From the NCBI GenBank assembly GCA_947034885.2, contig OX344749.2, positions 2,805,501 to 2,869,500 on the forward strand: 64,000 nt of DNA, read 5' to 3'. The translations under genes and the position numbers were made by a program. This document shows, piece by piece, positions 3,013-62,729 of the stretch (the stretch's first letter is position 1; each line of letters starts with the position of its first letter). The notes beneath the pieces are model-generated. The model searched no databases, had not been told where the DNA came from, and was given only the letters and a program-made list of their open reading frames with translations. The DNA is from Thuidium tamariscinum (lineage: Eukaryota > Streptophyta > Bryopsida > Hypnales > Thuidiaceae).

Positions 3013-4530
3013 TGCATGTAAGATAGAATTGCAATTGTCCATCCTTAGAATTTTGTTCAAAAAAGAGAGATTATGAATAGGAGTTTGTTATGAATTTTTT
3101 TATAGTAGATGTTTCACATGGTTTCAAAAAGCATGATTTCCATAAACCAATTGGGCCTTTAGGGGTTAAATGCAAGATACAACTTCGCTCAAGCACAACG
3201 GTGTCTTCAAAGCATCTCTTGCATCCCTCCAATTAGTACTCCAATCCCTTCAATTAAAATCTATCCAATTTAGGAGAGATGGCTACTTTTATCCCTTGTC
3301 GTACGCGCAGTCTAGCAGAAAGCACCTTTATCACACCCAAACATGATAATATGACACGGAATATCGTCCCAGGAGACTCCAGACGTTACTAATAGTTGCG
3401 TTTTCCGGTTTCTAGGTTTCATGGATCAAAACACCCCAAGTTACTACTCTTAATCCGGCATACCAACTTGTCTTCCGGAACTCTTTTTCCGGATCCGTCG
3501 TTTCTTTCCGAATCCGTCTCTCAACTATGACCGGATTCCTTCCTTGGATCCGGATTTCACCTTCACCCAGATCCGTCTCAATCCGGAATCCGGTTCCGTC
3601 ACTCAATAATCGGTTTTTGATACCCCTGTTTTACCCTTAGGGAGTCCTCTCTTGATCTTTAGAGGGGTAGGGACTTACCACTCGTAAACCTCACGCTCTC
3701 TCCTCTCAAACAAAACACACGAAAACACCAAAATATATCCGGTGTTGTATTAGGGCTGGATTTGGATCCTCACAACTTCCCGGATAGCTCTAGGCCAATC
3801 CGGTTAGCAGGTCACTCAGGACTACTTCACTTGCCCTTACTACAACGACAGATTCGGAAACCCCTAGACCCGAAAGGACGTATTTTCCTAGTTCTTCGGA
3901 TCGACTCAATGGTTGGCAGACCTTCCGATGGACGGAACTTTCCTATGGCGGCTGCTTAACTCCGCACGGATCCGCCCCTACGGTTCCGGAACCTCCTCCT
4001 CGTCACTCTTGGACTCACACCGGATCACCGTTCCGGTGAATTAAAGGCTCCACGCTCAAACTCACGATTCAAGATCCTAACTCTCGGAAGTTGGTCACTC
4101 AGTTTGGATTTCAAGTGCCTAAGAATCCGGATTCCTCCTCACCCTTCCTTCTTGCCTCTCAACACTTCAACGAACACACCAAGAAGAGACTCAAACATAA
4201 GTCAGAGCTAGAATGTCCATCCGCCGGCTCAAATTAAAGAAGGGAATGAAAATACAATGGGATATGCACTAGGAGGGAATGACAGGCCAACTAACTTGCC
4301 TGCCCCTTAAAAGCTCAAAAACACAATGAAAGTCAAAGCCTAAAAACAGAAACGGAATGCCAACAAGGCCAAAGAAAATCCGAAACAACCAACCGGAGTC
4401 CAACCGGATTATCCGGAAAGGTCCGGTCAGTTGTCCCTAAAGTTCCGGATTGGGGCCCACATCCGGGAAATCCGTCCAGGAAACTTCCGTCCCAAAATCT
4501 CAAAATCCTACCTAACTACACAACTCTGTC

Positions 4531-6545
4531 CTACTTACGCGCCCGCTTCGATGTCATGCCTACGGGCGGAATTGAACTCCTCCGCGTTGCTACCTTGGGA
4601 GGGGGAGCCTTCTTGGTGGCGGATCGGGTCTGCCTCTTCTGAATCGGAACTGGTGGCGTTCCGTTGTCTTCCGTCGAGGTCTCCTCCGAATTCGCCTCGG
4701 AGCTTTCCGAATGCTCCACTTCCTGAAATCTGCCCTGCTCCCTAACTTCATCACGGATGGTGAGGGGCATATTGTCTTCCCTGTCCGAGTCATCCAAGAT
4801 GACTGTCTTGCTGCGCGGATCCTTGCCCGGAACCCTGTCTGGCTCGTTCATGTGGGCGAACTTCTCCGGATTCTCCCTGGCCGGATTCGCTAGGGCCTTC
4901 ATTCGGATCTCTAGGACGAGCCGTGGTGATGCCCTCTTCTCTTGCGGTTCCGTAGGTGTGTTGGACGGTCCGGCCGCATTCGGATCCGATCCGAGCTCGC
5001 CGAGGTTCTTCACGACCGGCGAGTTTCCGAGTAGCTTCCGATCCGTCGACATCCGTCCTTGCGCACCGGGGCTGAAGTCCGTAAAAACTTGCTGGTTGAG
5101 CAAGCTCGATAGTCCTTCCCCCAACTCCGGATTGAGAGCCCTAATTAAGGCCCTCATCTCCTTCAGTACCCCTTCCATCTTGGCCTGGTAATCCACCAAG
5201 ATGGTGATGACTTTTGATCCGGTGACGTGCCCTTCCGTCATCAGCCGGGCGGAAAACAGTTTCGCCCTCATCACTGTATCCGCCGGCTGGGCCACCAACT
5301 CCTGCAGGTTCCGAACCAAGGAGGTGGCCTCCACGATCTTCCCGTTGGCGACACTCAGATCACTCTCCAGATACGTCATCGTGCTCTGGAGCCCATTCCG
5401 CTCCTCTTCCGCCTTCCGTCGTCCCTCTTCAACTACCCGGGCCAGATCTTCCGCCTGCCGGGTCCGGTCTGTCTGGTTCCGGGCCTCGTCCTCCCACTTC
5501 TGGATCTCCTCGTCCTTCTTCCGCAACACCTCTTGAGTCGGAAGACGGTCGAGGATTTCCGGAATATCCTCGATCTTTACCGCGCCCAGCTTGGTGACGA
5601 CCTGCTCGAGTATCGCCTCACACTAGTTGTTGTCCGCGTGTGCCATCATGGCGTGATGGATGATGGTGTCGAAGTGGTTCCGCTTCTTCTTCCCCAAGGT
5701 GGATCCGGGTTTGGATGTCCCCGCTTATCCGGCGTTGTAGACTTCTTCCGTTCCGGTTGGCTGGCCGGCTTCGGCTCTTCCGGGTCCTCGTCCATCCGCT
5801 CGTCCTCTGGGTCCTCCGGCTCCTTCTCCAATTCATCCGTCAAGCCGTACTTGAGGATCTGCTCTCCCGTCTCATAGCGGAGGAGTTCCGGGCCACTCAG
5901 TACATCATTGTGGTGGTACAGGTGGAAGAGATAGGCACTGATGGTGCTGGTCTTCTCTCGTCCCACATGCTCGGCTAGCCGATTAACTACCCACTGGAGG
6001 ACTAGGCTCTAGTTGACTATCCGCTTCTCAAAACACCCGAAGATGGTGTTTGCTACCGTCACCGTGACACGGGTAGGCTTTTCCGGATAGAGGATGGGAA
6101 TCAGGAATTCCAACATCCGTCTATGCCGATCGTTTGTGCAATTCGGAACTGAGTATCTGTCCTTAGGGTGGGGCGGATTCCGGAACTTATTGACACCAAA
6201 CTTGTCCGTCCGGGGAGCCAGACCTAATCCGGTTTTATCAAAACCGTATACATCCGCCCAGATATCCGGCGACCAGGCACTCGGTCTACCCCTCACTGTG
6301 AGTTGGTACTGATTCGGAACTCCCGAGAGGATTTCCTGTAACATCTCATCACTCTTCACACTCCATGGGCGCCGGATCAACCCATGACACCCTAGGAAGA
6401 CTAGATCATCCTCTAACTCCTTCCAATGCTGCGGATCGGAAGGGATGAGTGGCGAAATCGCCTTGGCAGTCATTACCACCCGTTTCGGATTGGAGGAACT
6501 CGCCATCTCTCCGCTCGAGTCAGAACTTGTCGGTGCGGTCGGCAC
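4531..6545 (-). pseudogene. Gag-like/coiled-coil ORF of element A, broken
   Basis: This is the degenerate copy of the ORF in B (11700-13736). The frame opens at 6545, is stopped by TAG at 6009-6011 (Trp in B) and reopens. It is then shifted by a 10-bp deletion near 5700, where B has an extra CGGATCGACC between direct GGATC copies. It meets a further TAG at 5623-5625 (Gln in B) and runs open from 5529 to 4531. It keeps the PHPKDRY-type block and the KPTRVTVTVANTIF block in the N-terminal half, an acidic EEPEDPEDE stretch, a coiled coil rich in K/E/R, and a basic, Ser-rich C-terminus. Function unknown. The N-terminal half distantly resembles the gag-like 'putative plant transposon protein' domains, which is inference only. 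Confidence 0.8.
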
Positions 6546-6680
6546 CGACCCTAAACTAAACCCGGAACCGATCTCTACTGCTCACCACTCTTTCTCTCTC
6601 TATACGTGCTCCAAAACCTGCACACAAGCCGTACCTCGATTTGCCAAATCGAAAAGGAGAAATGAAGTGGAGTGGTGGGG

Positions 6681-6688
6681 TTTATATA
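6681..6688 (-). promoter_or_regulatory. TATA box of element A ORF
   Basis: On the minus strand this reads TATATAAA, ~410 bp inside the upstream end and ~140 bp before the ORF. The same box and spacing occur in B (11557-11564). Confidence 0.65.
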
Positions 6689-7101
6689 CCAGTCGGTACC
6701 TTGTGTTCCCAATTCCCCTCGGAACGGCGCGACGTTCCCCGGCCGTTACGCTAGTTTCCGTAGGTCGGCGGCGTAGACCCGTAGGTGCCGACCATCCGGA
6801 ACTGGCTCAAATCCGTCCCTAAGTAGACCGGATCCATCTTTAGGTATATCGGGTCCATCTTTAACAAGTTCCGTCTTCCGGAGAGTTCCGTTCCGGAGAC
6901 TGGAGAATCCGGATCCGGAAACTCATACCTATAACCCGGAAATTCTCCTTGCTCAATCCGGTTCAGACGGATCCCAAGGGAGAAAGACCTTAATTGTCTT
7001 CTTTTCCCCATATCTAACCCTAAAATTTTGAAAAATTGAGCTACTCTATATACTATCTCCCTATTTTTACTTACATGATATTTCCGGACTGCGACATCCC
7101 T

Positions 7102-10959: not shown

Positions 10960-11556
10960 TGTGGCAAACCATATTTTTGATTTTTTTCGGTTAGCAGGTT
11001 TTGCGAGCGGAAGTCAGGAGCTTAGGAACCGGAATTTTCCAAGGAACGGGTAAGATCCTGCAATAGTACCGGATAATGCTGTAGCGACCGGTGGCGGAAC
11101 AAATCCGGTCCATGACAACGGAAAACCGGAAAGGAACACTTCCGGACCCTTATTAAAAAGGAACGGATTCTGTTGCAATCCGGAAATATCATGTAAGTAA
11201 AATAGGAAGATAGTATATAGAGTAAGCTCAATTTTTGAAAATTTTAGGGTTAGATATGGCGAAAAGAAGACAATTAGGGTCTTCTTCCCTTGGGATCCGT
11301 CTGAACCGGATTGACCAAGGAGAATTTCCGGTCTATGGGCATAAGTTTCCGGATCCGGATTCCTCAGTATCCGGAACGGAACTTTCCGGAAGACGGAAAT
11401 TGGAAAGACGGATCCGGTATACCTAAAGACGGATCCGAGGCAGTTCTGGATGGTCGGCACCTACGGGTCTACGCCGCCGACCTACGGAAACTAGCGTAAC
11501 GGCCGGGGAACGTCGCGCCATTCCGAGGGGAACTGGGAACGCAGGGTACCGACTGG

Positions 11557-11564
11557 TATATAAA
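11557..11564 (+). promoter_or_regulatory. TATA box of element B ORF
   Basis: TATATAAA, followed ~140-180 bp later by the two candidate ATGs of the ORF. The same position is conserved in A. Confidence 0.65.
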
Positions 11565-11699
11565 CCCCACCACTCCACTTCATTTTTCCTTTTCGATTTG
11601 GCAAATCAAGGTACGGCTTGTGTGCAGGTTTTGGGGCGCGTATAGAGAGAGAAAGAGTGGTGAGCAGTAGAGATCGGTTCCGGGTTTAGTTCAGGGTCG

Positions 11700-13736
11700 G
11701 TGCCGACCGCACCGACAAGTTCCGACTCGGGCGGAGAGATGGCGAGTTCCTCCAATCCGAAGCGGGCGGTAGTGACGGCCAAGGCAATTTCGCCAGTCAT
11801 CCCTTCCGATCCGCAGCATCGGAAGGAGTTAGAGGATGATTTAGTCTTCCTAGGGTGTCATGGATTGATCCGGCGCCCTTGGAGTGTGAAGAGTGACGAG
11901 ATGGTACAGGAAATCCTCTCGGGAGTTCCGAATCAGTACGAACTCACAGTGAGGGGTAGATCGAGTGCCTGGACGTCGGATATCTGGGCGAATGTATATG
12001 GTTTTGATAAAACCGGATTAGGTCTGGCTCCTCGGACGAACAAGTTTGGTGTTAACAAGTTCCGGAATCCGCCCCACCCTAAGGACGGATACTCAGTTCC
12101 GGATTGCACCAACGACCGGCATAGACGGATGTTGGAATTTTTGATTCCCATCCTCTATCCGGAAAAGCCTACCCGTGTCACCGTGACGGTAGCGAACACC
12201 ATCTTCGAGTGTTTTGAGAAGCGGATAGTCAACTGGGGTATAGTCCTCCAGTGGGTAGTTAACCGGCTAGCCGAGCATGTGGGACGGGAGAAGACCAGCA
12301 CTATCAGCGGCTATCTCTTCCACCTGTACCACCACCATGATGTGTTGAGTGGCTCGGAACTCCTCCGCTATGAGACAGGAGAGCAAATCCTCAAGTACGG
12401 CTTGACGGATGAGTTGGAGAAGGAGCCGGAGGACCCAGAGGACGAGCGGATGGACGAGGACCCGGAAGAGCAGAAGCCGGCCAGTCAGCCGGAACGGAAA
12501 CCGGAACGGAAGAAGTCTACGACGCCGGATAAGAGGGGACACCCAGACCCGGATCCACCCGGATCGACCTTGGGGAAAAAGAAGCGGAACCACTTCGACA
12601 CCATCATCCGTCACGCCATGATGGCACACGCGGACAACAACCAGTATGAGGCAATACTCGAGCAGATCGTCACGAAGCTGGGCGCGGTGAAGATCGAAGA
12701 CATTCCGGAAATCCTCGACCGGCTTCCGACTCCAGAGGTGTTGCGGAAGAAGGACGAGGAGATCCGGAAGTGGGAGGACGAGGCCCGGAACCAGACGGAT
12801 CGAACCCGACAAGCGGAAGATCTGGCCCGGGTAGCTGAAGAGGGACGACGGAAGGCGGAAGAGGAGCGGAATGGGCTCCAGAGCACGGTGACGTACTTGG
12901 AGAGTGATCTCAGTGTCACCAACGGGAAGATCGTGGAGGCCACCTCCTTGGTTCGGAACCTGCAGGAGTTGGTGGCCCAGCCAGCGGATACAGTGATCAG
13001 GGCGAAACTGTTTTCCGCCCGGCTGATGATGGAAGGGCACGTCACCGGATCAAAGGTCATCACCATCTTGGTGGATTACTAGGCCAAGATGGAAGGGGTA
13101 CTGAAGGAGATGAGGGCCTTAATTGGGGCTCTCAATCCGGAGTTGGGGGAAGGACTGTCGAACTTGCTCAACCAGCAGGTGTTTACGGACTTCAGCCCCG
13201 GAGCGCAAGGACGGATGTCGATGGATCGGAAGCTACTCGGAAACTCGCCGGTCGTCAAGAACCTCAGCGAGCTCGGATCGGATCCGAATGCGGCCGGACC
13301 ATCCAACACACCTACGGATCCGCAAGAGAAGAGGGCATCACCACGGCTTGACCTAGAGATCCGGATGAAGGCCCTAGCGAATCCGGCCAGGGAGAATCCG
13401 GAGAAGTTCGCCCACATGAACGAGCCAGACAGGGTTCCGGGCAAGGATCCGCGCAGCAAGACAATCATCCTAGATGACTCGGACAGGGAAGACAATCCGT
13501 CCCTTACCATCCGTGATGAAGTTAGGGGTCAGGGCGGATTTCAGGAAGTGGAGCATTCGGAAAGCTCCGAGGCGGATTCGGAGGAGAATTCGACGGAAGA
13601 CAGCGGAACGCCACCGGTTCCGATTCAGAAGAGGCAGATCCGATCCGCCACCAAGAAGGCTCCCCCTCCCAAGGTAGCAACGCGGAGAAGTTCAGTTCCG
13701 CCCGTGGGCACGACATCAAAGCGGGCGCGTAAGTAG
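11700..13736 (+). pseudogene. Gag-like/coiled-coil ORF of element B, one stop
   Basis: A single frame of 679 codons, interrupted only by TAG at 13080-13082 in DY*AKMEG, where A has Gln. Start is 11700, or more likely the internal ATG at 11739 (MASSSNPKR). Residues ~45-230 form an alpha/beta-looking conserved region with PHPKDGY (~124), HRRMLEFLIPILYPEKPTRV (~140-160), VNWG and YLFHLYHHHD. Residues ~240-285 are acidic then basic. Residues ~345-425 are a strong coiled coil. The C-terminus is Ser/Arg/Lys-rich (RSATKKAPPPK). No zinc knuckle, protease, RT or integrase is present. Gag-like assembly or nucleic-acid binding is a guess from layout. It has an equivalent in A and C, so it belongs to the element. 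Confidence 0.85.
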
Positions 13737-14471
13737 GATAGGGTTGAGTAGTTAAGTAGGATTTTGAGATTTTGGGACGGAAGTTTCCTGGACGGATTTC
13801 CCGGATGTAGGCCCCGATCCGGAACTTTAGGAACAACTGGCCGGACCTTTCCGGATAATCCGGTTGGGCTCCGATTGGTTGTTTCGGATTTTCCTTTGCC
13901 TTGTTGGCATTCCTTTTCTGTTTTTAGGCTTTGACTTTCATTGTGTTTTTGGGCTTTTAAGGGGCAGGCAAGTTAGTTGGCCTGTCATTCCTTCCTAGTG
14001 CATATTCCATTATATTTCATTCCTTTCTTTAATCTGAGCCGGCGGATGGACATTCCAGCTCTGACTTATGTTTGAGTCTGTCTTGGTGTGTTTGTTGGAG
14101 CGTTGAGAGGCAAGAAGGACGGGTGAGGAGGAATCCAGATACTTAGGCAACTGAGGTCTGAACTAAGTGACCAGTTTCTTAGAACTTGGGTTTAGAGTTG
14201 TGCGTTTGTGCGTGGAGCCTTTAATTTGCCAGAACGGTGATCCGGTGTGAGTGTGGAGGAGGTTCCGGAACCACGGGGGTGGATCCGTGCGGAGCTAAGC
14301 AACCGCCAAGAGGAAAGTTTTCGTCCACCGGAAGGTCTGCCAACCACTAAGTCGATCCGCCGATCTAGGGAAGTACGTCCTTTTGGGCTTCGATGTCTTT
14401 GGATCTGTCGTTGTAGTAAGGGCAAGTGAAGTAGTCCTGAGTGACCTGCTAACCGGATTGGCCTAGAGCTA

Positions 14472-16367
14472 TGTCGCAACCTAGAATACAAGTTTTTATT
14501 ATTTAGGATAGAATTAGGAACAAAAGATCCAATCTTAGCAAATTTTTCTGATTCTTTGAGAGAGAATTAGATAAATGACTAAGATTAATGATGAGTGGAA
14601 AGTAGAGTAGTCTTATAGAGATAAATTGGTTAAGCTAGGAATTTATATTTCCCAATCGGACCGGAAACCGGAGACCGAAACCAGAGACCGGAAACTGAAG
14701 GAGGATCCTATAGAAAAATTACTAAGGATTTGGTGGGACTTCAAGAGTATGTCCGGGGATAGAAACAGAATGGGAGGAAAGTCTATAAGTTGATGTGATA
14801 CATCAGCTCATCCAACCTTGGGAAAAAGCACAGTCCGGTCAAGATCCGGATTAGAACCAAGCGGGACCGGAACAGGAGACCGGAACCCAGATCATGACTC
14901 AAGACCGGATGTTACTTCTCCTCAGCGATTTAAGGAGAAAGGAAAGATTCCAAGGAAAAGGCTGCAGCTGCAATCCAGGTATCAATCAGTAGGAAGCAAC
15001 CAGCTATAGAAGGGTCCACCAAGCATGTGGGTTTTCCCCCCAAAATAGATAAAAAGGTAGTTGTAATTAGCAACTAGAGTAGGTAGAATAATTTTAGAAG
15101 CAGATGAATTTGAAAGTGGTAGTAGGTAGAAAATAGTTAGCAAGTTACTTTTGAGCTGGATTCACCTGGACCGGACCAGATCCAGATTTATAGGATCTGA
15201 GATCCACTTTTTGTGGGATTTTCAGAAGTCAACGAGCCCAAGTTGTAAGGGAATGTTACGTGGCATTCTCTGGGTTGATGTTGATTCCCCTTGTACTTTT
15301 AGGTTATTCTTGGAGTTGTGTAGTATTTAAATTCGGGTTGTAGTTGAATCCGGTGTGTAGTTCCATATCTTGTTTTCCCAAATTTTTGTGTTGCAAATAC
15401 AAATCAGACCTTTTCTGATTCACTCTAAAGTGGACTGTGTACGCTTGACCCTGTCAAAGTCTTGTTGGGACGGTTAGGATTGCAACCTTGGGTGGAGAGG
15501 AGGTGCGCCCAGATTCTGAGTTTATCCAGTCTCTGGACCTGAAGTGAATTCGGTTTTGATAGGGAATTTGTGTGGGATCTCTCAGTATAATTTGGAGCAG
15601 GTCTGGGGAGTAATCATTGGAGATAGACACTTGTAGAATCTGGATTTGAGATCGGGAGTGTCCGGCCAAATGCCAATTGAAAGGTGATCCGGTCTCTGTA
15701 GATGAAAGAAGGACTAGTGAAGGATATATCTCTCTCATGCAAGCTACCGCCCTTATTCTGCCAAGATGCAGGACTAACTCAGTAATCTGTCGTTGTAGTA
15801 ATTGTTAGGAGCAGATAGGAGTGCTTGCGTGACCTACTGGACCAGATCCGTTCCGGTCCAGTTGTGAAGTATTCCGGTCTAGTAGGATTTATTTTGTTAT
15901 CTTTCTTCTTTTTATTTTTATAGTGGAACTTCTGACACTTTAAAACTTGAAGGGTAGGAGTAAGCTTCCTTCCTAAACGCCCAAAGAGCAGATCCCTCTC
16001 GTTACAGAGGTTAAATCTACACTTGGTCACTTATTTAGGGACCAAACCAGATCTTAGTTTCCGGTCTCCGGTCCCATATTTAGAAAGAGTAGTAAGAAAA
16101 ATCTAAACATGTGGGTATAAGTGGAGAGGAAACTCTCTGCAGTCAGAAATGTGATCCTGTTCCGGTCTAGAAGTAAAAATCAAGAAGTGTTCAGACCGGG
16201 ACCGGATTAGTTTTTGCTTGGGTTTTGTTGTGACTACCATTATAGTATTCCGGTCCACCGTGAGCTTTCGACCAAATCCTTTGGGAACGATACACGAGTC
16301 ACTTTAAGGCTAACTTAGTACATTCTAACGCCTTAGAGAAGGAATTGTGCTTTCCTGTGCTACGACA
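14472..16367 (+). mobile_element. TGTCG element E, 1.9 kb, nested in B
   Basis: It starts TGTCGCAACCTAG and ends GTGCTACGACA, with a perfect duplication AGCTA at 14467-14471 and 16368-16372. Its ends match element D (TGTGGGAACCTAG ... reverse of TGTCGTAGCACA), so D and E form a subfamily. No ORF longer than ~95 codons exists. A 63-codon Arg/Gln-rich frame at 14818-15009 may be the remnant of the basic ORF seen in D. It is rich in GGACCGGA and CCGGTC words. Confidence 0.9.
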
Positions 16368-17030
16368 AGCTATCCGGAAAGTTGTGAGGATCCGGATCCG
16401 CCCCTAATGCAACATCGGATATATTTGGGTGTCTTTGTGTGTTTTGTTTGAGAGGAGAGAGCGTGAGGTTTACGAGTGGTAAGTCCCTACCCCTCTAAAG
16501 ATCAAGAGAGGACCCCCTGAGGGTAAAACAAGGGTATCTAAAACCAATTATTGAGTGACGGAATCAGAATCCGGATTGAGACGGATCTGGGAAAAGGTGT
16601 AATCCGGATCCGAAGACAGATCCGGATAGTGGTGACGGATCCGAGACGGATCCGGATAGAGGTGACGGATCCGGATAGTGGTGACGGATCCGAAGACGGA
16701 TCCGGAAAGAGTGGAGAGACGGATCCAAATTGAATTTCGGACACAAGGTTGTGTTCCGGAAGAAAGTAATAACTTGGGGTTTTTGGGGCCGGAAAACCTA
16801 GAAACCGGAAAACGCAACTAATAGTAACGTCTGGAATCTCCTAGGACGATATTCCGTGTCATATTATCACGTTTGGGTGTGATAAAGGTGCTTTCTGCTA
16901 GACTACGCGTACGACAGATTCTATCCGGATTCAATCCCAGAGCGGACCGGATCTTTTCCGGACCTGGACTGAGTGGATGGGAACGGGAACAGAAGATCAG
17001 GAACGGAAGACCGGATCCATTTCTGGAAAC

Positions 17031-17038
17031 TATATAAG
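17031..17038 (+). promoter_or_regulatory. TATA box of element C ORF
   Basis: CTATATAAGG lies ~115 bp after the B insertion and ~355 bp before the ORF. The same TATATAAGG form is found before the kinase-like gene (24041) and in F2 (60292). Confidence 0.6.
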
Positions 17039-17390
17039 GCCTGACATTTTCAGTTGGCCCATTTGCTCTCAAGCACTTCATTGTGTGTTTTTTAACTCTC
17101 AGCATTTTTCGCCTTTCTGTGAGTTAGTTTTCCGCGCGTGTTGTGTGGCGCAGTTTTCTGTGGCGCGGCTGTCAGTGTTAGCGGCTGGTGTTTTGTCAGA
17201 GCGGGCAGTTGTCAGCGGTGCGGGTCTCAGACGGTGCGCTGAGGCGCTGGTGTGCGCGGGAGGAGTATGTGTGTGTGTTTGTGTAGGTGGTTATTACGGG
17301 CGGATTGGTGTTGTGTCTGTGTTGTGAGTGTGTGTGAGGAACGGGACGTGCGGCTAGGAGAGAAGTGAGGTAGTTTTCCGAATAGTTGCC

Positions 17391-19055
17391 ATGCCACAGC
17401 TACGCCGGAAGAGGAATGAGTCCACCACACCCCCACCCCCAAGGATAAGACTGAAGAAAGTAGTTCCGCTCATCCCTTCAACAAAGCCGGAGAGAGGCAA
17501 TCTGATGGCGGACTTGACCACCATGGGGTGCCTAGGGTTAGCGAAGATACCCTGGAGGTTCAAGGAGGAGCGGATGGTGAAGGAACTGATGGGGAAGATG
17601 TCGAATCAGTTCGACAACACTGAGCGGGGATTACCGCACAAATGGATGGAGGCGCACTGGAGGGCCGTGTACGGATTCAAGCACCAGGGGCATGGACCGG
17701 CCGGGAGGAAAGTAGACTTCCTCCAAAACAAATTTAGCGACACCCCTCACCCGAAGGACGGATATCGGGTGATGGACTGTAACGAAGACAAGCATAGACG
17801 CCTATTGAAGTTTCTGCTTCCGGTCCTTCATCCGGAGAAACCAACCCGGGTGACGATCGGCTTGGCCAACACGATTTTCGGTGCTCTGATCGGAGACCAG
17901 AAAGTAGACTGGGGCCGGATCATAGCGGAGCTGATCGGCCGGTTACTGAGAAACCTCGGAGGGAGTAGGGCGACCCCGATCTCTCCCTACCTCTTCCACC
18001 TCTATCACAGCTTGCAGCTCCTCATGAATACGGAGGAGAAGACTTGGCACGCTCAGGAGATAGTCTTGACGTACGGGGAGTCATCAACGGATGACGAGGA
18101 GACCTACTCCGAATCCGACACGGAAGAGGAGGACAAGGATGAGGAACCGGAAGTTCCTCTCGTGAAACGGCAGAAAGCAACACCGCCGAACACGAGAGGA
18201 TCTCCTCTGGTCCGACAGAATCCGGCCACGGAGGACAGATCGGGGCCATCCGAACCGGCACCAAAGGAGAAAGGTCCCAAGGATCCGTTCGTCAAGTTGA
18301 CGAAAATCCTGTGTGACATCCGGGCAGATTGGGAGATCAAACGGATTACCCTGGAATCTATCGCGGCCATGGTTAATGGCCAACCGGATAGAAATCTTCC
18401 GGGTGTAATGGGGAATTGCATTGCCTCCCCCACGGATCTCGCCAAGTTGGAGGCGGAAAACCGGAAACTTCAGGATGAAGTTGACGGTTTGAAGGCAGAA
18501 CTTCTTGTCCTCAGGGACAACGAGGCCGCCACGAAGGAGATCGCGGCGGAGACCGTGAAGGTGGCTGAGCAGGTGAAGGCGACGTTTGGGGAACCCGGAT
18601 CGGCAGCCATCCGGGCTCGGCTGTTTGACGAGGAGGTACACAAGGAGAAGAAACTATCCGGAAGCCGGATAGTCCGGATCCTTTCTGACTTCTCCGAGCG
18701 GGTGGAGACAACATTGGTGGAGGTGCGGAAAGCTACGGAGCGGATGGAAGACTGTACCCGGAGGCTGATGGAAATTTCGGTCAGGCTTTCCGACCTGTCC
18801 CTTCCGAGTCTTTCCGAGGGAATGCCTCCGAGGCCAGGGAAGGAGAAAACGCCGCAGTCCAAGAAGTCAGAGCGGGCGTCGACGGCTCAACAGGAGGCAA
18901 CAATCCAATTATCGGATTCTCCTACGAGCCCGATTGTTGGGGCTCCGGTCGCAGTAGATGGGGAGCGGACTCGGAACCTCACTAAGGTTTTCGAACAAAT
19001 CCGGAGGACGGAAAGCCCAACTATAGGCTCTAGAGTAGCAGAGGTAGAAGAATAG
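17391..19055 (+). CDS. Gag-like/coiled-coil protein of element C, intact
   Basis: 554 residues starting MPQLRRKRNEST, uninterrupted. It is the only intact member of the ORF family in the window and clearly diverged from B. The shared block is PHPKDGYRVMDCNEDKHRR followed by LLKFLLPVLHPEKPTRVT, GLANTIFGA, VDWGRII and YLFHLYH (residues ~118-205). An acidic run (SESDTEEEDKDEEPE) is near 235-255. There is a predicted coiled coil at ~345-390 and a second amphipathic helix at ~430-465. The C-terminus is disordered. Conservation of this frame despite divergence argues that it was selected in the family. No enzymatic motif is seen. Function unknown. Confidence 0.8.
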   Translation: MPQLRRKRNESTTPPPPRIRLKKVVPLIPSTKPERGNLMADLTTMGCLGLAKIPWRFKEERMVKELMGKMSNQFDNTERGLPHKWMEAHWRAVYGFKHQGHGPAGRKVDFLQNKFSDTPHPKDGYRVMDCNEDKHRRLLKFLLPVLHPEKPTRVTIGLANTIFGALIGDQKVDWGRIIAELIGRLLRNLGGSRATPISPYLFHLYHSLQLLMNTEEKTWHAQEIVLTYGESSTDDEETYSESDTEEEDKDEEPEVPLVKRQKATPPNTRGSPLVRQNPATEDRSGPSEPAPKEKGPKDPFVKLTKILCDIRADWEIKRITLESIAAMVNGQPDRNLPGVMGNCIASPTDLAKLEAENRKLQDEVDGLKAELLVLRDNEAATKEIAAETVKVAEQVKATFGEPGSAAIRARLFDEEVHKEKKLSGSRIVRILSDFSERVETTLVEVRKATERMEDCTRRLMEISVRLSDLSLPSLSEGMPPRPGKEKTPQSKKSERASTAQQEATIQLSDSPTSPIVGAPVAVDGERTRNLTKVFEQIRRTESPTIGSRVAEVEE

Positions 19056-20311
19056 ATAGTAGCCTTTTTGTATTTTTGACTTAGGAACGGATCAGGAAGT
19101 AATCCAGTCCGGATTAGGAACTTAGAGCGGGTTGGAATCCGTTCCGGTTCAGGAGTAGGTAGGAACGGATCCACCGAGCGTTAATCGCGGCGGACTTGTA
19201 TGGCGCTTTATGCTTTCTGTTGATTATTTAAGTCAGTCCCCTCGCGGTGGACTGGGAGTCTTTCTTTTGCATTTTCCTTGTGTATTTTTATTCTCTCTTG
19301 CTTTGCGTGTGTATCTCCCGAGTTTGGCAGGGCGGCGTGACGCAGAGTTAGGAAGGTGCAAGTAGTTTTGCAGGTGACATTCTCCCTTTGGTGCTTATTT
19401 TCCGTGTCTAAGTATATGAGAACGGTTAGAGAAGAGTTGGGAGTATAATTCTAGTGCCTCAGCGCTTCTAGGACTTAAGATTCCGGGTGAGAAAGCCGTT
19501 GTTAGGCTAGACGAGAGGGAGGGATTCCTTAGTCGTGCTAGAGCTCCTGGGTGGGAAACCCAGTTGAGTGTCCAATCTCCTGTGAGGTCTCACCGTCTTT
19601 GTGGCAAACGGAAGAGTTCTGGTTAACGTTGGAATGAACGGGTATACTTGTAGCCACCTGACTCTACAGGAACGGAAAGTAGTGCCAAAGTCGTTGTAAT
19701 ATGAGAAGATCGTACGGGGGATCTCTGTGTGACCTACAGTCTGGATTTCTATCTGTACTGTTGTGAGGGATCAAACCGGATCTGGAGTAATTTTAGAGTT
19801 AACGGGTAGAAAGTGGGTCTTCAGCCACTATAAGTCACGGAAGGAGCGGTGGGCCTACCGCTCACAAAATCAAGCGGCGACCCCTCTGATGGTAAAACAG
19901 AGGCAAAACCAAACCGGATTGAGGAACGGGTGTGGACGGATCATCCGGAACGGATTGGTCCGGAGAGGAAACCAGGAGCGGAACTCGTTAGGGAGCGGAT
20001 CCGTTGCAGTCTGACGGAACGGATAAAATCCGGGAAACCGGAAAAGTGAAGGAACTGATCCGTTCCGGACCAGATTGCTAGAATATCAGTTTTGAACGGG
20101 ATAATGGGTTGTCGTCTCGGGTTATTTGTGTATTTCCGGTTCTAGATCTAGAACCGGATTATAGAGTTTTGGGAGCTGTCCTATCTTAATCGCTTAACTA
20201 AGCCAGATACTTCACAGAATCTCGCGGGTTCGATCTTTAGAGTCACTTAGTTATACTCTACAGTGATTTTTGTGAGTATAATAGGGAATTTACTTACCCT
20301 GTGTTGCGACA
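19056..20311 (+). other. Non-coding 3' part of element C
   Basis: No ORF of note. It contains a run, near 19875-19915, of the form CGACCCCTCTGATGGTAAAA then CAGAGG, a small hairpin. The corresponding place in A, B and G has CCCTCTAAAGATCAAGAGAGG, so a hairpin is kept while its sequence changes. It ends at CGACA. Confidence 0.5.
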
Positions 20312-23340: not shown

Positions 23341-23499
23341 CATGTTATTTCTTTTATTTACTTCAAAATTTGCAAAATTAGATTGACGCTAGGAAAAGAA
23401 AGATCAATTACCGAATACAAATTATAATGCACTTCTTAAGTTATTAAATTACTAAACTAGACATTTTACCCTCATTTACGCAAAAGTAAAAAGGAACTT

Positions 23500-23527
23500 A
23501 AACCCTAAACCCTAAACCCTAAACCCT
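23500..23527. repeat. Interstitial telomere-type repeat
   Basis: Four perfect consecutive copies of AAACCCT, the Arabidopsis-type plant telomere unit. Such short interstitial tracts are common in plant promoters and old break sites. Confidence 0.9.
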
Positions 23528-23639
23528 CGGTTGGGCAAGGCCTTTAGGTTGGGTTTTCACCTTCTCAAAATTCAGTGTCAGCCCTTAGATGGGCAGTTTC
23601 TGGGCCTGTTACCTTTTTACCTTGTAGAGGAATTTCAGT

Positions 23640-24030: not shown

Positions 24031-24040
24031 CGCCAACGGC

Positions 24041-24048
24041 TATATAAG
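24041..24048 (+). promoter_or_regulatory. TATA box of kinase-like gene
   Basis: CTATATAAGG sits at the boundary between the GC minisatellite and the leader, ~200 bp upstream of the ATG at 24242. A 3' splice site (TTTTTTTTCAG) ends at 24240, so there is probably a 5'UTR intron. Confidence 0.7.
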
Positions 24049-26814
24049 GTAGGCCAGTTCTGAGCTCTACACGAGTTTCTCCTGCTCTGACGGTGCTCTC
24101 TTGCCCTGGATTGGTTGTAGTCCTTGCTTGGGAGCGCGGGTGCTTGCGAGGAGGCTCGGTTGAGGAAGGGGGGATAGTTTTCACATTTGTGACTACTGAA
24201 CCCTAATTCCTTGGTTTTACCATCGCATATTTTTTTTCAGAATGGACGGGCGAGGTGCGTCGAAGCGCAAGGTTGATGCGTGGTTTTCAGGCATCGGAGA
24301 TCCTGTTGGTGAACAGTCTTCAGAATCCACTGACTGTGTATCGGAGGCAGTATTGGCCGGAGAAGGGGTCGGTGGTGTGGCTGGAGGAGAATCTTCGGGG
24401 GCCAAGAAAAAAAAGAACAGGCGAAGGCACAAGGCTACGAATACAGACGACTGGCCAAGGAAGGCTGCGACCAGGAAAGTGTAGGAAGTGGCATTGGATT
24501 TTCTGGAGCAGTATACGATTTCTCAATTGAATACGACCTACGTCTCGCGTGGATTGCAAGGGGTGGAGACAATAAAAAACAAATTCACCCACATGTTTTG
24601 GACAACAATGAGCGAGGATGAGTGGCTTGAAGATCGCACAAAGGAACACTTCCGTCGTTGGCTTGACGAACAAGTGCAAACTTGTGTTTTCAACATCGCC
24701 CAAGTCGCCGCATCGATAAAGGGCTTCAAACGAGATGTAGCGCCGAAGCAACAAGCATTGAATTTGTTGCACAAAAAGGTGTATTGGTGGCATGACGCAA
24801 TGCGAGCGCTGTCTTCCAGCAATATCCGCTCTGCCCCATGGTTTCAGCAGAGCCAAAACTTGTCCCTAGGCCAAGCGGGTGCAGGAGGAGTGGTATTTCT
24901 CGAACGAGGAGTGGTGGTGGTTCCATTGTCAGGCCACAGCAAACAAGGGGGGCACGGGAGGGTGCGTAAAGTGAGCCTCCAAAATTCAAGGCACATTCCC
25001 CCCACGATGGAATTGGCAGGCAAGACAGCCCTATATGTGGATCAATTGAAGAAGTCGCGGGAGAAGTTGTCCATCGACGCTTTGGTTTGTCCATGTAATC
25101 ATCCAGGGGTCATAAAATTTTTTGCTATAAATGACATGACCATGGAGTGTTATTCTCAATGGTGGAATGGAGGAACATTGGGAGCCATGTTCGCCTTGGA
25201 CCACAAAAACCGAGATTATGTTGAGATCGGGGAGCTTGCCTACCATGCAACTCCACAGACGATGCAAGAAGCCAAAAGACTCTTGGCTTATCATAGAAAC
25301 CGCACCGAGCTTGCATGGGCGTTAATTTGCATCGTGGATGCGGTGCAACAATCTTCGGTGCTCCACAACGACATCACGCCAGAAAACATCATGTTGCATT
25401 TTCCGAATGATGATGGGCGAACAGTGTGGATTGGGCTATGTGATTGGGGAATGGCTAGTTGTCGTACGCGCAGTCTAGCAGAAAGCACCTTTATCACACC
25501 CAAACGTGATAATATGACACGGAATATCGTCCCAGGAGATTCCAGACGTTACTAATAGTTGCGTTTTCCGGTTTCTAGGTTTCTCGGATCAAAACACCCC
25601 AAGTTACTACTCTTAATCCGGAATACCAACTTATCTTCCAGACTCTTTTTCAGGATCCGTCTTTTCTTTCCGAATCCGTCTCTCAACTATTACCGGATTC
25701 CTTTCTCGGATCCGGATTTCTCCTTCACCCGGATCCGTCTCAATCCGGAATCCGGTTCCGTCATTCAATAATTGGTTTTTGATACCCCTGTTTTACCCTC
25801 AGGGAGTCCTCTCTTGATCTTTAGAGGGGTAGGGACTTACCACTCGTACACCTCACGCTCTCTTCTCTCAAACAAAAATACATGAAAATACCAAAATATA
25901 TCCGATGTTGTATTAGGGCTGGATTCGGATCCTCACAACTTCCCGGATAGCTCTAGGCCAATCCGGTTAGCAGGTCACTCAGGACTAATTCACTTGCCCT
26001 TACTACAACAACAGATTCGAAAACCCCTAGACCCGAAAGGACGTATTTTCCTAGTTCTTCGGATCGACTCAGTGGTTGGCAAACCTTCCGATGGACAGAA
26101 CTTTCCTATGGCGGCTGCTTAACTCCGCACGAATCCGCCCCTGCGGTTCCGGAACCTCCTCCTCGTCACTCCTGGACTCACACCGGATCACCGTTCCGGT
26201 GAATTAAAGGCTCCACGCTCAAACTCACGATTCAAGATCCTAACCCTCGGAAGTTGGTCACTCAGTTTGGATTTCAAGTGCCTCAGAATCCGGATTCCTC
26301 CTCACCCTTCCCTCTTGCCTCTCAACACTTCAATGAACACACCAAGAAGAGACTCAAACGCAAGTCAGAGCTAGAATGTCCATCCGCCGGCTCAGATTAA
26401 AGAAGGGAATGAAATACAATGGAATATGCACTAGGAAGGAATGACAGGCCAACTAACTTGCCTGCCCCTTAAAAGCCCAAATCAAAACACAAGTCAACGC
26501 CCTAACAAGCCAAAAAGGCACCACAGAAATCAGGGCAACCAATCAGCGAACACCCCAAGATATCCGGAATGGTCACAACCAGCTATCCCTAAAAATCCGG
26601 ATCCCCTAAAAATCCGGAACTCCTATAAATCCGGAATTTGGATCCGCATTCGGAAAATCGGATTCAGATTCTAGAAATAAAATTTAACTAAGTGGAAATA
26701 GCCTTTAGCTACCTCTCCCAATGCGCCATCTTCAAACTGCTCCCACTTTGACTCCTTGGTGTCTTCGCAAAAGCCTTCGTGAACTAGAGTAGTCTTGACT
26801 GTCGCTTGGGTCCA

Positions 26815-26930
26815 AATCTCCCATTCCGGGTCAATTTCGGATCCAATCCGGGTCAATTTCGGATCCAATCCGGATCCATTTCGGATCCATTCCGGATCCA
26901 TTCTGGATCCATCTCGGATCCGGATCGTCA
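26815..26930. repeat. Short tandem repeats in element G
   Basis: Units such as CGGATCCATTC and CGGGTCAATTT, 15-30 bp long, with the word CGGATCC in nearly every unit. Confidence 0.8.
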
Positions 26931-27114
26931 ATATTTACGGAACATTTCTGTTCCTAAATATTTCCGGATCCAGTGCCGATAGTACCAAAATACTTTTGGA
27001 CTACTATCTGGGTTCTGGTTTCCGGTAAGGACAAAGAATGTAATCTTCCTCCTTAACCATTTTGTCTCAATAAAGAGACCCTATAGTTTGCTAATCCATA
27101 TCTAGAACATTCAC

Positions 27115-27265
27115 AGCCGGAAGTCCTAAATTTCCGAAATCCCTAAATTTCCGGATCCCTAAATTTCCGGAATCCGTAACTTTCCGAAATCCCTAAATTT
27201 CCGGATCCCTAAATTTCGGATCCCTAGAAATCCGGATCCGGATTCTTTCCGGATCGTTTTCGGAT
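27115..27265. repeat. CCCTAAATTTCCGGAT tandem repeats in element G
   Basis: About six 18-30 bp units of the form CCCTAAATTTCCGGAT, located ~185 bp from the right end, as subterminal repeats of a transposon might be. Confidence 0.8.
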
Positions 27266-28497
27266 TGTTTCCGGATTTTCCGGAATATGGATCATAGTTC
27301 TGGAATTTCTAGTTTCGGAACCCCCTTAAACAATAAAATGCTCTTATTTGTCCTACTCCTATGTTTAAGCTTCAAAAAAAATCAAAGAATCGGATTATTC
27401 TAGCAAGATATATTATAACACTATATTTTGGACATTTTCGGATTGTGACACTAGTCATATCAATGAAGAAACCCATTCTTTGTACCAGTTTCAATGTGGA
27501 AGCCAAATGCGGGCTACACGTCAGAGATGTTGGTGGGTGGCCCCTGAATTGATGTATGTGACTAGAGAGGCAGGCACTTCGGTATCCCCCACTCGCGCAG
27601 ATGGGGCACCGTGTGTCAGTATACATACAGACGGATTTGCTGTTGGGAAGCTTGCGGAGAAGATATGGAAGAAAGACCGCGAAAATACGGAAATGCTTCC
27701 CGACCATACATCGTTTGGTACATTTCAAGCCACATTGGGCGAATTGTGCAAAGAGGACCCACTACAACGATGCACGGTTACGTACGCCGTGGGACGAATT
27801 AGTGGCGCCCCCTTATTTTGGACTCCACCCGTGGATTGCTACCGCGAGGCCCGCAAGGAGCAAGCACTTCTACAAGAACAAGCAAGGAATGAAGATTAGA
27901 GAATAGTATTTTAGTGGCAATGTAATCGTAGACGTACCTTAGTACTTGCTTTTACCACAGTATAGTCCACGAACTTTGCCTCACTGAATTTTGTACTAAC
28001 TCCTTTTTGAAATAAATATATGTAAATCTTTTTGTTCCATTCGAGTATGATTCCGGTGAGTGGATTTGTGAGTAGTTCTGTCCCTTCGCAAATTTTGGAC
28101 TTAATGCCATGTTAATTCAGTACTTTCAATCATTTTCTCCATATTCCAGATTACATTTGTTTTCTTGTACAGGGCAAAATCCATAATGATCTCAAAATAT
28201 CCAAGCATGTAGGTAACCAGCTTCGAAGAATGAATCCAAATTTAAGAGTATAGAACACATGGCAAACGACAAAGCAAATATTTCCATTTCTTGGGACAAA
28301 TATCCATAAATGGATCCGTTGTTGCGTTGTAGAATTTGTGACATGTGAAGATAAAAAATTTCTACCCACACGCCTTACATGAGCACAAGAAGCATGGGTA
28401 GTATTTATAATTAATGCCGAATTTCACATGCAAGGTATTCAGCCTTACACAGTATTACATAAGATGACATGGAGACATTTTTTTCCCTAGATGCTCT

Positions 28498-28639
28498 CAA
28501 CGTCTTGCACGTGTACGATTAAGAGCCATGCTCCTTGCAGTAGCCTCTCGCGTGGTTGCTTGGTTGTCTTGAGGTGCAGGTGGAGGACCTCTACGAGTCC
28601 CTCTATAATCACTATCTCCCAGAACTTCACCATCTTCAC
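28498..28639 (-). pseudogene. Possible terminal exon, unknown protein
   Basis: On the minus strand, an acceptor TGTTATCAACAG is followed by an open frame reading GEDGEVLGDSDYRGTRRGPP, then APQDNQATTREATARSMALN and a stop at 28498-28500. Composition (disordered, Arg-rich tail) is protein-like, but no upstream exon is found because the next DNA codes on the other strand. Low confidence. Confidence 0.3.
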
Positions 28640-28659
28640 CTGTTGATAACAACGAAAAC

Positions 28660-29505: not shown

Positions 29506-29519
29506 ATGTGCAAGCAGCA

Positions 29520-30990: not shown

Positions 30991-31004
30991 GAAATCTCAT
31001 TGCC

Positions 31005-31215
31005 ACCCTAAACCCGCAGTCGCCCCTCACCCGAGTTCGCAGTCCTCTAGGACCCGCGGTCGCCCACTGGAACCCACACCCGAGGTCGCCCACGGCCACC
31101 TGCACCCGAGGTCGCCCACTGGAACCCACACCCGAGGTCGCCCATAGGAACCCGCACCCGAGGTCGCCCTAAAGCCCCAGTCGCCTTGCATTTGGTACCC
31201 GCGGTCGCCCTCTCT
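31005..31215. repeat. GC-rich minisatellite
   Basis: Roughly six ~30-bp units around CACCCGAGGTCGCCCACTGG and AACCCACACCCGAGGTCGCC, with sharp GC contrast to both flanks. Like the arrays at 43 and 57 kb it lies next to a hAT-type end (31417). Confidence 0.85.
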
Positions 31216-31309
31216 TCACCCGCAGGCGCCTTAAACCCTTTCCACGTCATTGTCCAAAGCCTGCCACGTATGCCAAATCCATTTACTATAGGGTAATTTT
31301 TTTTTACCT

Positions 31310-31417
31310 TACTCGACGGGCTGCGACGGGGTAGCGACATGTTATCACCTGCGACACGCGACGTCAGACGTCCAACACGACACTAAAACCAAAAATATGT
31401 CCAACAAGAAAACCCTG
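31310..31417 (-). mobile_element. hAT-like terminal fragment K
   Basis: The minus strand begins CAGGGTTTTCTTGTTGGACA, then TATTTTTGG and GTGTCG..GGACGTC. It is homologous over ~110 bp to the right end of MITE J (63370-63481). The other terminus and an 8-bp duplication (ACGGGTGG expected) were not found, so it is a fragment, possibly including the minisatellite to its left. Confidence 0.55.
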
Positions 31418-31747
31418 ACGGGTGGATCATCCAAGCTAGACGCTTGTCGTCGCACGCCGATCGTGTCTCGACGCAATGTGCGAAAGTCTATCTCGACACC
31501 AATGGGGGATCTGTGGCTACGAGTGTTCCACGCCACTAGGGGATCTGTGGCAACGACCTCATCTTCGCCTTGTCTTTCTACCACAACGACATGTTCATGT
31601 CTCCGGGTACGCATTTCTTCTTCAATCGGCCCTATAACCGGCGAAGGTGGGGCTTCAACCCCTTCGTTTTGATTTCCACCACTTGATCCCGCAATCGATG
31701 TACAAGGCCTTATTCGTTAAATTGAGACAAAATAGTCATTTTGAGAC

Positions 31748-33893
31748 TGTCGTAGCACAAAGAAGCACAAATCCGTCTATAGGTGTTAATTTGGCATTAA
31801 CACCGTTCAAATGACTCGTGTATCGTTCCCACAGGATTTTACGTAGATTCCTCAAGATATCCGGAATAACAAGATGCGGAAAACAACCCCAAGACAACAG
31901 TAACCGGATTCCTAACCGGAAACTTCCTCACAACATCCGCATTCCTTTAGATTGCCTTTCTCACCATTCATACATACTTTACCACTCTCACAACAACCTC
32001 CAAACAGGGGGGAGTGCCCAAACTCTGTACCTTCCCCTATCCAGACTCACAGTATCCGACTGGGCGGATTAGGAACCGAAAGGAGTGCCCAAACTCTGTA
32101 CCTCTTCCGGATCCGGTTTCCGGATCCAATCACTCAAGTAACAAATGAAGTTTAGCCTCTGTATTAGAGGGGTCCGCGGTTGGCATTTAGGAAGGATGCG
32201 TTGAATCCTACCCTCCTCAGGATTATAGTGAATGGAGTTCCACTAAAAGAGAAAAAAATAACAAAAGACATAAAAGAAATAGGCTGCAAGTTCTTCCTCA
32301 CAACTAATCCGGATTGCAATCCCAACTAGTAGGTCACTCAGGAAACCCCTACAAACCCCACATTACTACAATGACAGACTCACCCAAACTCAGTTCCTAA
32401 GGCTTAATCTAGGAGCCAGATAACTAGGGGATCCTAACTGTCTGCACATCCCTCACTTCCGGTTATAGTAGGACCTCAACAACACGTCAATTGGCATGCG
32501 CCCACTCTCCTAGCAGAACACACCCAATCTAAGAGCGGCTTTCCCACACAGAAGCCTCCAAGTGACTGCAGCAGCTAGACTTCAATCCTAATACACCAGT
32601 AGCCTCAACCAAATCACTTCAATTTCCCGGAACCGGATTCAGACAAAGTCTGGGGGAGACACCTCATCCAAACACCTACAAACCCAGCTACCTCGCACTA
32701 TCCAATGGTTCTAGCATTGCACGGCATACCAATCCAGAGTCGAGACTTGTTCAGACCAACTCTTAGAAAGTAGAAATCTGGAAATCAGATTGCAAATGAA
32801 AGGAAAAACAGAAGTAGGAACACCCGGGGCAACCAACTAACAGCCACCCCTAAATACCAACCCAAGGGAACCCTAAAAGCCCCAAGGGAACAAAATCAGA
32901 GGACAAGAGAATGCCAGGTGGCATTCCTTATCCACAAAAGTCACTTTCCTATCCACCCAACTGGACCCGAAAAAAGTGGATCTCAGATCCGAAAAATCCG
33001 GATCTGACTGACCAGGTGCATTCTAAGTTAAAAGCACCTTGCTAACTGCTTCCTACCTATTGGAGAGGTAACTTTCCACCTTTTCCACTAAGTCTGCTCC
33101 TCAAAATTCTCTACCTACTCTACTTTCTATTCCTAACTACTTCTTCATCCGCTTTTTGGGGGAATCCGCATGCTTGGCGGCTCCCTTGCGTGCTGGCTGT
33201 TTCCTACTGGTGGAAACCTTTGCCGACGCAGCTGCTTTGCCCTTGGAAGGCGTGGCAGCAATCTTACCCTTCCCCGTAGATTTCGAAGGCGTGATTTCCG
33301 TCGGGTCTGACGGTTCCGGTTCCGGTTCCGGATTCCGAATCCGACTCCTCTTCTTCGTGCTCGCTCTGCTCTGGGGACTCGTCTTCGTTAGACTCCAGCT
33401 CAATGGGACTCTCCCTCGCCCGCTTTGCTGTAGCCTTCCTCTTCATTGTGCTAGGAACCTTGGGGGACTTCTCGGATACCTTGCTCGGAGGCGTCTCCTG
33501 ATCCTGGTCTTCCGCTTGGACTTGCTTCCGGATTTGGGATCCGGGTGTTGCCCCTTCTCCTACATCAAGATTAAGTCAGGAAGATGCCTTGGGCGCCTGT
33601 GGAGTCTTCTCTTCCACTGAACCCTTGCCCTTGGATGACATCTGGACCCGTCCACGATCCTAGGGTTGAACCTCAGATCCTCAATCCGGTTCCGGATTTT
33701 CCGGTTAGGTAAGGGTTTCTACTTCCCTTCTTTAACCTTATTATCCCAATTGGATGTCTCCAATTTCCACCTCTTCCTAATCTTACTCATTTTCCCTATT
33801 CTTGATCAAAGAATCGAAAAATTTATCTAAGATTAGCTTCCTTATTCCTAATTCTATACTAAACATTAAAAACCTGTATTCTAGGTTCCCACA
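31748..33893 (-). mobile_element. TGTCG element D, 2.1 kb
   Basis: It starts TGTCGTAGCACAAAG and ends CTAGGTTCCCACA, with perfect duplication GAGAC at 31743-31747 and 33894-33898. Both ends match E, including the internal CGTGTATCGTTCCCA motif ~75 bp from the TGTCGTAG end. The minus strand carries a short basic ORF remnant. It inserted into a sequence reading AAGGCCTTATTCGTTAAATT, the same type of end found next to the hAT gene at 54.2 kb. Confidence 0.92.
33137..33641 (-). pseudogene. Basic/acidic low-complexity ORF of element D
   Basis: ATG at 33641 reads MSSKGKGSVEEKTPQAPKAS, then TGA. Neighbouring frames continue with MKRKATAKRARESPIELESN and an EESDSESGTGTGTVRPDG stretch, and then end KQPARKGAAKHADSPKKRMK. 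At least two frame changes are needed, so it is broken. The basic tail recalls the C-terminus of the A/B ORF (KKAPPPKVATRRSS), suggesting a shortened version without the conserved globular half. Confidence 0.55.
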
Positions 33894-34443
33894 GAGACTT
33901 TCAATATTTAGTGCGCAACTACCATTGAGGTAGAAGTTGTTGAATCCAAGGATAAATAGAATCGGATTTGAAGTTCTCTGAAATAATTTGAAGGAAGTAT
34001 ACATCCATGGGTCATTGACATGATGTGCGAAATGAAGAAAAACAAGGAACTTGGATTCTAATCATTTATGGACTTGGGATTTTCATACTTAAAAAACACT
34101 TGGGATCTTCATATACAAAGAGTATGTGAGTCTTCACTTCAAATTCCATTGGAGGAAATGAATTGTCATGAAATGATATGATTGCAAAGGCTCATTGTAC
34201 AGTCATGAAGCCCTTAACTTCTCATAGGGTTTTAAGGGTGTCTATTTGCCTAGTAATCACAGATAGGGCTAATCATAAAGCACAAATCTTTACAATCTAA
34301 TATCTATTTACGTCCCATTCTATTTTTAGTAATGAGATTATGAAGCAAAGACCTTATTAATCTAAGTCTCATTCACGTATCATTCTATTTTTAGTAAAGA
34401 ATTGAGGAAGCTGCTTCGAGAACTTCATTGTCTTTCGTAGGAT

Positions 34444-43055: not shown

Positions 43056-43141
43056 GAAATGCATTCAACCAAGACGAAGTCAATATAATGTTCAAGTCAG
43101 TATAATGTGGACAATGTTCACAACAACATAGAACACAGACT

Positions 43142-62720: not shown

Positions 62721-62729
62721 AGTGCCACA

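Follow-up and report, generated by a model that had tools for sequence, protein, structure and literature searches.

Units with LTR-type insertion marks carry a conserved gene and dense ATCCGG-type motifs: a possible VANC-like anti-silencing system

We analyzed a 64,000-nucleotide stretch of DNA (contig OX344749.2, positions 2,805,501 to 2,869,500; hereafter the window) and found that six mobile units in it (referred to as elements A, B, C, D, E, and G) bear integrase-type insertion marks and are saturated with a short motif of the type ATCCGG, and that three of them (A, B, and C) contain copies of an open reading frame (ORF) whose protein has been under selection. As the best explanation, and one that we hold tentatively and somewhat short of probable, we propose that these are long terminal repeat (LTR)-type units that carry a VANC-like anti-silencing protein together with its own ATCCGG-type targets, and that the protein is also active in trans on units without the gene. 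The six elements would most simply be solo LTRs, which would make the LTR 1.9–3.8 kb long. The complete units A, B, and C each combine a TATA promoter with the gene of a conserved protein, which would have a VANC-like N-terminal fold, along with an acidic linker and a coiled coil. This protein would be dimeric, probably via its coiled coil, and would bind ATCCGG-type motifs (with the palindrome TCCGGA as the core) that lie scattered or in places in tandem in its own and related units, thereby protecting the units from DNA methylation or from silencing of another kind. It would also serve the gene-less D, E, and G, which retain their ends and motifs as trans-served copies would. A candidate target DNA for the protein encoded by the C ORF, and for its N-terminal domain, is ATCCGGAT.

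The six elements, which had been marked by a sequence-only reading of the window, are real, and the coordinates it gave for A, B, D, E, and G were confirmed by end-to-end or terminal alignments together with the flanks (Table 1). The alignment of A with B spans both elements entirely (3800 versus 3845 bp, 89.6%) and ends exactly where the ends had been marked. D and E can be aligned with each other at either terminus, and an alignment of 1160 bp between G and A reaches the very last base at the 3' end. G is mosaic in structure: in its 3' part it matches A at 92.5%, against 87.7% for B and A in that region, and its first 848 bp resemble neither A nor B. The elements are nested, E within B and B within C, and all six adjoin non-element DNA. 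Their strands were set by the ORF or by homology to an ORF-bearing unit, and in D and E by each other.

Table 1. Positions of the elements, their ORFs and TATA boxes, and the motif arrays in the window
Feature	Position	Strand	Description	Basis
Element A	3297..7096	-	3800 bp; TCCCT target duplication; ORF-bearing, ORF broken	end-to-end alignment with B, flanks
Element B, overall	11171-16916	+	3845 bp without nested insert	
Element B, first part	11171..14471	+	GATTC target duplication; E interrupts B	
Element B, last part	16373..16916	+	includes tandem motif array 16605-16711	
Element C, overall	10960-20311	+	3601 bp without nested inserts	
Element C, first part	10960..11170	+	5' end TGTGGCAAACC; B interrupts C	left end: tandem repeat break 10959/10960
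Element C, main part	16922..20311	+	without target duplication	right end: dispersed repeat break 20311/20312
Element D	31748..33893	-	2146 bp; GAGAC target duplication; no detectable ORF homology	
Element E	14472..16367	+	1896 bp; AGCTA target duplication; nested in B; no detectable ORF homology	
Element G	25460..27450	-	1991 bp; CTAGT target duplication; inside kinase-like ORF; no detectable ORF homology	
A ORF	4531..6506	-	split into several frames	tblastn family homology 4534-6554
A TATA box	6683..6688	-	GTATATAAACC; element position 409, upstream of A ORF	
B TATA box	11557..11562	+	element position 387, upstream of B ORF	
B ORF	11739..13736	+	one in-frame stop 13080-13082 (447 + 217 codons)	
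C TATA box	17031..17036	+	element position 321, upstream of C ORF	
C ORF	17391..19055	+	intact, 554 amino acids	
Motif tandem array in B	16605..16711	+	periods 19, 30, 49	
Motif tandem array in G	26587..26636	-	period 17	
Motif tandem array in G	26821..26921	-	periods 11, 22	
Motif tandem arrays in G	27117..27277	-	periods 11, 17, 50	
CCGGAA-type short tandem array in E	14659..14695	+	periods 7, 13	

A 5-bp target duplication is a hallmark of LTR elements, and the five perfect duplications reported by the sequence-only reading were all recovered (A, B, D, E, and G), against a match rate of 0.00119 among 200,000 random 5-mer pairs drawn from the window. All six elements have TG...CA ends. The shared TGTCG/CGACA termini described earlier hold in part, as the 3' CGACA is conserved in all six, while an exact 5' TGTCG is present only in A and E and is replaced by one-base variants in B (TGTTG), C and D (both TGTGG), and G (TGTCA). 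The pentamer pattern alone is weak, since only two (A and E) of the 366 pentamer pairs 0.5–10 kb apart in the window have matching flanks, and it is therefore homology that makes the set of elements convincing. When the flanks of G are joined with a single CTAGT, one open frame runs across a kinase-like ORF. This ORF (24593-27896), which G interrupts, has a Pfam Pkinase match below the curated cut-off in its left half and no match in its right half, so its identity as a kinase-like gene is weakly supported.

Element C has different flanks on its two sides (CCCTT versus CCAGT) and no duplication. At its left end, a local tandem repeat continues past 10282 in one copy and breaks off at the first base of the element in the other; at its right end, a dispersed repeat breaks off at a point corresponding to 60316/60317 in a second copy (60.3 kb). 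Because the flanking repeats break at both ends, the flanks of C derive from two different target sites, the pattern that recombination between two insertions would leave, and the ends look real despite the missing duplication. The tandem repeat cut by C (9532-10959) consists of units roughly 340 bp long, with differences of about a quarter between them. The dispersed repeat is present as two direct copies about 40 kb apart (20312-22553 and about 60317-62723), 70–88% alike in pieces; TATATAAGG lies immediately upstream of 60317 in the right copy, and the right end of C adjoins the left copy at the corresponding point.

Consistent with the earlier claim that long terminal repeats are absent, self-comparison of the six elements revealed neither long direct nor long inverted ones (the comparison covered the plus strand, and inverted ends were judged by terminal comparison instead, which gave only 5–7 common bases). 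Within the window, no copy is followed by an internal retroelement region, and there is no full-length relative with two such LTRs around gag-pol. The claimed lack of polymerase and integrase also held: the ORFs of B and C, and 36 other ORFs of at least 110 amino acids, yielded no Pfam match to a reverse transcriptase or integrase domain (from 79 ORFs 45 were kept and 36 scanned, the nine left out being pieces of the A, B, and C ORFs and overlapping frames).

These units might instead be complete, self-bounded non-autonomous elements that are not LTRs, inserted with an integrase borrowed in trans from an LTR retrotransposon or a Ginger-like transposon, with the protein as their own regulator. 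That all six copies are isolated units, that a single unit holds promoter, gene, and 3' region, and that D, E, and G retain both ends in the manner of deletion derivatives all speak for this explanation, which we nevertheless regard as rather unlikely. We know of no mechanism that would make such a unit without an LTR-element stage. Moreover, inverted ends confined to 5–7 bases are of the kind described as typical of LTRs (PMC3601003), and LTR length has been stated to correlate with solo LTR formation (PMC7251063, citing Du et al. 2012). We tentatively take the units to be LTRs, and not elements complete in themselves.

The ORFs of A, B, and C are homologous, and each of these units has one ORF only. 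The sequence-only reading had placed a gag-like ORF behind a TATA box in all three; the homologous ORF and the TATA box are indeed present in each, but the ORF is intact only in C. Over 656 codon pairs (three with stops were skipped), the ratio of nonsynonymous to synonymous substitution rates (dN/dS) between the A and B ORFs is 0.215, compared with 0.39–1.8 in the five wrong frames and 0.59–0.88 in flanking DNA treated as codons, which indicates that the protein was under selection while the family spread. A tblastn search with 217 homologues detected copies of the ORF in A, B, and C only (E-value 1e-4), and a hidden Markov model (HMM) search for remnants in D, E, and G gave a best E-value of 0.034, on the wrong strand. 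The pattern that finds the TATA boxes of A, B, and C finds none in D, E, and G, and AATAAA/ATTAAA occurs once in the elements, in C. On the minus strand of D, element positions 452-754 contain a frame with a basic tail (SPKKRMKK) like the C-termini of some family members; it is perhaps a remnant of a deleted ORF, with the HMM result not significant.

The C protein consists of a predicted helical N-terminal domain (about residues 17-232), an acidic disordered linker, and a coiled coil (299-461). A protein search that scored only the 8000 candidates with the most shared words identified 162 homologues (E-value of at most 0.001), of which the best 120 are 29–55% identical, contain no Pfam domain, and come from contigs as long as about 800 kb. 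When residues 1-240 of a distant family member were used as the query, with proteins of up to about 1320 amino acids admitted, 143 matches were obtained (E-value of at most 10), and the best 120 of these were again without a Pfam domain. As the longest of the 217 homologues has 754 amino acids and the best 120 per search lack Pfam domains, the idea of a Gag-pol fusion was set aside. No relatives were found in the viral_contigs and genome_contigs collections, and Rfam and ARAGORN gave no matches. Among proteins of at least 550 amino acids, the acidic linker is present in 38 of 72. A basic C-terminus was considered as a family trait and rejected, since neither at least five K/R in the last 12 residues (18 of 72) nor KR.K (12 of 72) is general.

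The N-terminal domain is predicted to be helical, with a single strand of at least three residues, and one moderate structural match suggests, at the level of prediction, a VANC-like fold. The match is not backed by the Foldseek list for the N-terminal model (best E-value 2.1, none significant). DUF1985 is not among the Pfam matches listed (the best 25 families in two of the lists), and the N-terminal profile had no sequence match in PDB up to an E-value of 10. The PDB sequence matches of the full-length profile fall in the linker and coiled coil, and VIA on the full-length model likewise gave coiled-coil matches. A suspected link to the plant family PF20167 stays no more than a lead: one of 17 N-terminal domains matches it (E-value 0.033), and the family is absent from the first 25 of 110 families obtained with 77 members.

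The gene in the solo LTRs might alternatively have another role, for instance as a Gag-like structural protein or as an activator of LTR transcription, and take no part in anti-silencing. The coiled coil, the acidic linker, and the basic C-terminus of some members would fit such proteins equally well. No Gag family is among the Pfam matches listed, nor among the structural matches listed, the latter not excluding Gag. We consider this alternative unlikely, if still to be taken seriously. The label "gag-like" finds no support, and the earlier interpretation as a whole is supported in part.

Proteins of the VANC type bind short motifs that are reported to be dense in the non-coding parts of their own transposons (PMC5735166, PMC10398659), and this precedent, together with the predicted fold, led us to search the elements for such a motif. 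ATCCGG, counted on both strands, occurs 149 times in the 17.3 kb of elements versus seven times in the 46.7 kb outside (an eighth outside position spans the junction between the flank duplication of E and the point where B resumes), and AATCCGGA occurs 38 times in the elements versus none outside. Among all 64 six-base palindromes, TCCGGA and GGATCC are 35-fold and 23-fold more frequent in the elements than outside, and the next is below 4-fold; E contains a single TCCGGA. ATCCGG is present 33 times in A, 40 in B, 23 in C, 15 in D, 6 in E, and 32 in G, compared with a maximum of 1–2 in outside windows of 1.9–3.8 kb (565–745 overlapping windows per size). The symmetric base profile around CCGG arises by construction from counting both strands, and was not used as evidence of a palindrome.

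In shuffles that preserve dinucleotides (200 each), the means for G, D, and E are 1.8, 0.9, and 0.5 (maxima 6, 4, and 4), far below or, for E, still below the observed 32, 15, and 6. The 5' part of C has six copies (mean 0.2, maximum 2), and the 3' parts of A, B, and C have 17, 20, and 6 (means 0.8, 0.9, and 0.6; maxima 4, 4, and 3), whereas the six copies in the 5' part of A equal the shuffle maximum of 6. The ORFs of A, B, and C contain 10, 14, and 11 copies versus means of 2.5, 2.3, and 1.6; in A and B the motif is thinner in the ORF than elsewhere in the unit, which does not apply to C, where the ORF is denser in it than the 3' part. The tandem arrays (Table 1), which the sequence-only reading had not mentioned, are found in B, G, and E, and D has a 6-bp run. 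With a score of 40, Tandem Repeats Finder (TRF) detected no such array in A or C, and the motif is dispersed there.

CpG observed/expected ratios are 0.94–1.23 in A, B, C, and G, 0.62 in D, and 0.57 in E (0.81 outside), and without the CpGs of CCGG they fall to 0.66–0.81, 0.44, and 0.31, respectively; as a record of methylation these ratios are not decisive. In D and E, CCGG is enriched although CpG outside CCGG is depleted, as if the CpGs of the motif had been kept or protected while others decayed.

Motif density could also be a neutral by-product of tandem duplication or shared ancestry, unrelated to the protein, given that some copies lie in tandem repeats and that A and B form a single family with the 3' part of G. 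We find this improbable, as C and D/E are, apart from short ORF stretches, unlike A/B in nucleotide sequence and yet have the motif in common with them, so that its sharing is not simply shared DNA; in addition, the motif is dispersed in A and C, and the shuffles fall short of the counts in most parts. Lastly, it is very improbable that the ORF encodes a new type of transposase or integrase and the units are DNA transposons: the ORF is indeed their only gene and gene-less copies retain both ends, but the predicted helical domain with its single strand would hold no RNase-H-like sheet, and the Pfam matches that pass the cut-off include no transposase or integrase family, with PF20167 and PF21804 (one of 23, E-value 0.11) among the weak ones.

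Going further, we raise with considerable reserve the possibility of a retrotransposon lineage outside plants, probably fungal as judged from gene content, that has placed a VANC-type gene for sequence-specific anti-silencing and CG-containing target arrays inside its LTR, such that each LTR, even a solo one, would be a self-contained epigenetic island keeping itself and its gene-less relatives active in trans. To our knowledge, plant VANDALs are the only described case of sequence-specific anti-silencing by a DNA-binding protein that a transposon encodes. If LTR-type elements outside plants do have a structurally related protein, the strategy would be of greater age or would have passed from one element class to another, and the compact pair of one protein and one short motif could perhaps become a tool for targeted epigenome editing. 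Among the literature listings and excerpts obtained on VANC relatives in fungi or LTR elements, and on ORFs inside LTRs, there is no such system.

Several other features lie elsewhere in the window. Remains of a hAT-type transposon gene, with DUF659 and the hAT C-terminal dimerisation domain, are located at 54220-56655 (minus strand), and two adjacent frames at 50944-53376 (plus strand), the second with DUF7869 (E-value 1e-43), are possibly another mobile element gene. At 43141-43657 there are GTCGAC-rich 31-bp tandem repeats and a near-perfect hairpin (43402-43596), and 139 bases recur as an inverted copy at 57050-57188; this may be a short mobile element. Inside the sequence, at 23499-23527, the repeat unit of some telomeres, TAAACCC, occurs four times.

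Solo LTRs of Ty3/gypsy and Ty1/copia elements likewise have short TG...CA inverted ends and 5-bp duplications, and occur as isolated and nested insertions; the units described here are instead 1.9–3.8 kb long, with a promoter and a whole gene inside. Unlike a full-length LTR retrotransposon, they have no direct terminal repeats, and no reverse transcriptase or integrase domain in the scanned ORFs. Some retroviral genes lie in or overlap an LTR, e.g., sag of mouse mammary tumor virus, nef of lentiviruses, and the transactivators of foamy viruses. All of these are alike in having a gene within or overlapping the LTR, and in foamy viruses it is a regulator acting on the LTR, while here promoter, whole gene, and 3' region are in one unit. 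Ginger-type DNA transposons have their own integrase-like transposase and long terminal inverted repeats, in contrast to the lack of an integrase Pfam match and the 5–7-base inverted ends here. RLG_Quinta of wheat is reported to resemble our units in having one conserved ORF and no polymerase genes, but with two LTRs around the ORF and a clear Gag (PMC11302176), neither of which was found here. The excerpted element survey of Laccaria bicolor lists large retrotransposon derivatives (LARDs), and no passage on solo LTRs or LTR length was found in it (PMC3411680).

Transposon-encoded counters to DNA methylation are also described in fungal DNA transposons and Helitrons with a TET/JBP dioxygenase (PMC12730594), which is an enzyme, whereas we propose a non-enzymatic DNA-binding protein. 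Closest in their working are the VANDAL elements of Arabidopsis and their VANC proteins (VANC21 and VANC6), as here too a short motif is present at high density in the protein's own elements. The units are not VANDALs, which are reported to be MuDR-type elements (PMC12730594), while ours have TG...CA ends and 5-bp duplications; autonomous VANDALs encode the VANA transposase, while A, B, and C have one ORF and no transposase Pfam match. The VANC21 motif is given as YAGTATTAY and VANC motifs as lying in non-coding parts, compared with an ATCCGG-type motif that is also found within the ORF here. The family protein has no detectable sequence similarity to VANC and is at most a putative member of that family; what it would share with VANC is a predicted N-terminal fold, together with DNA binding and demethylation that we propose for it.
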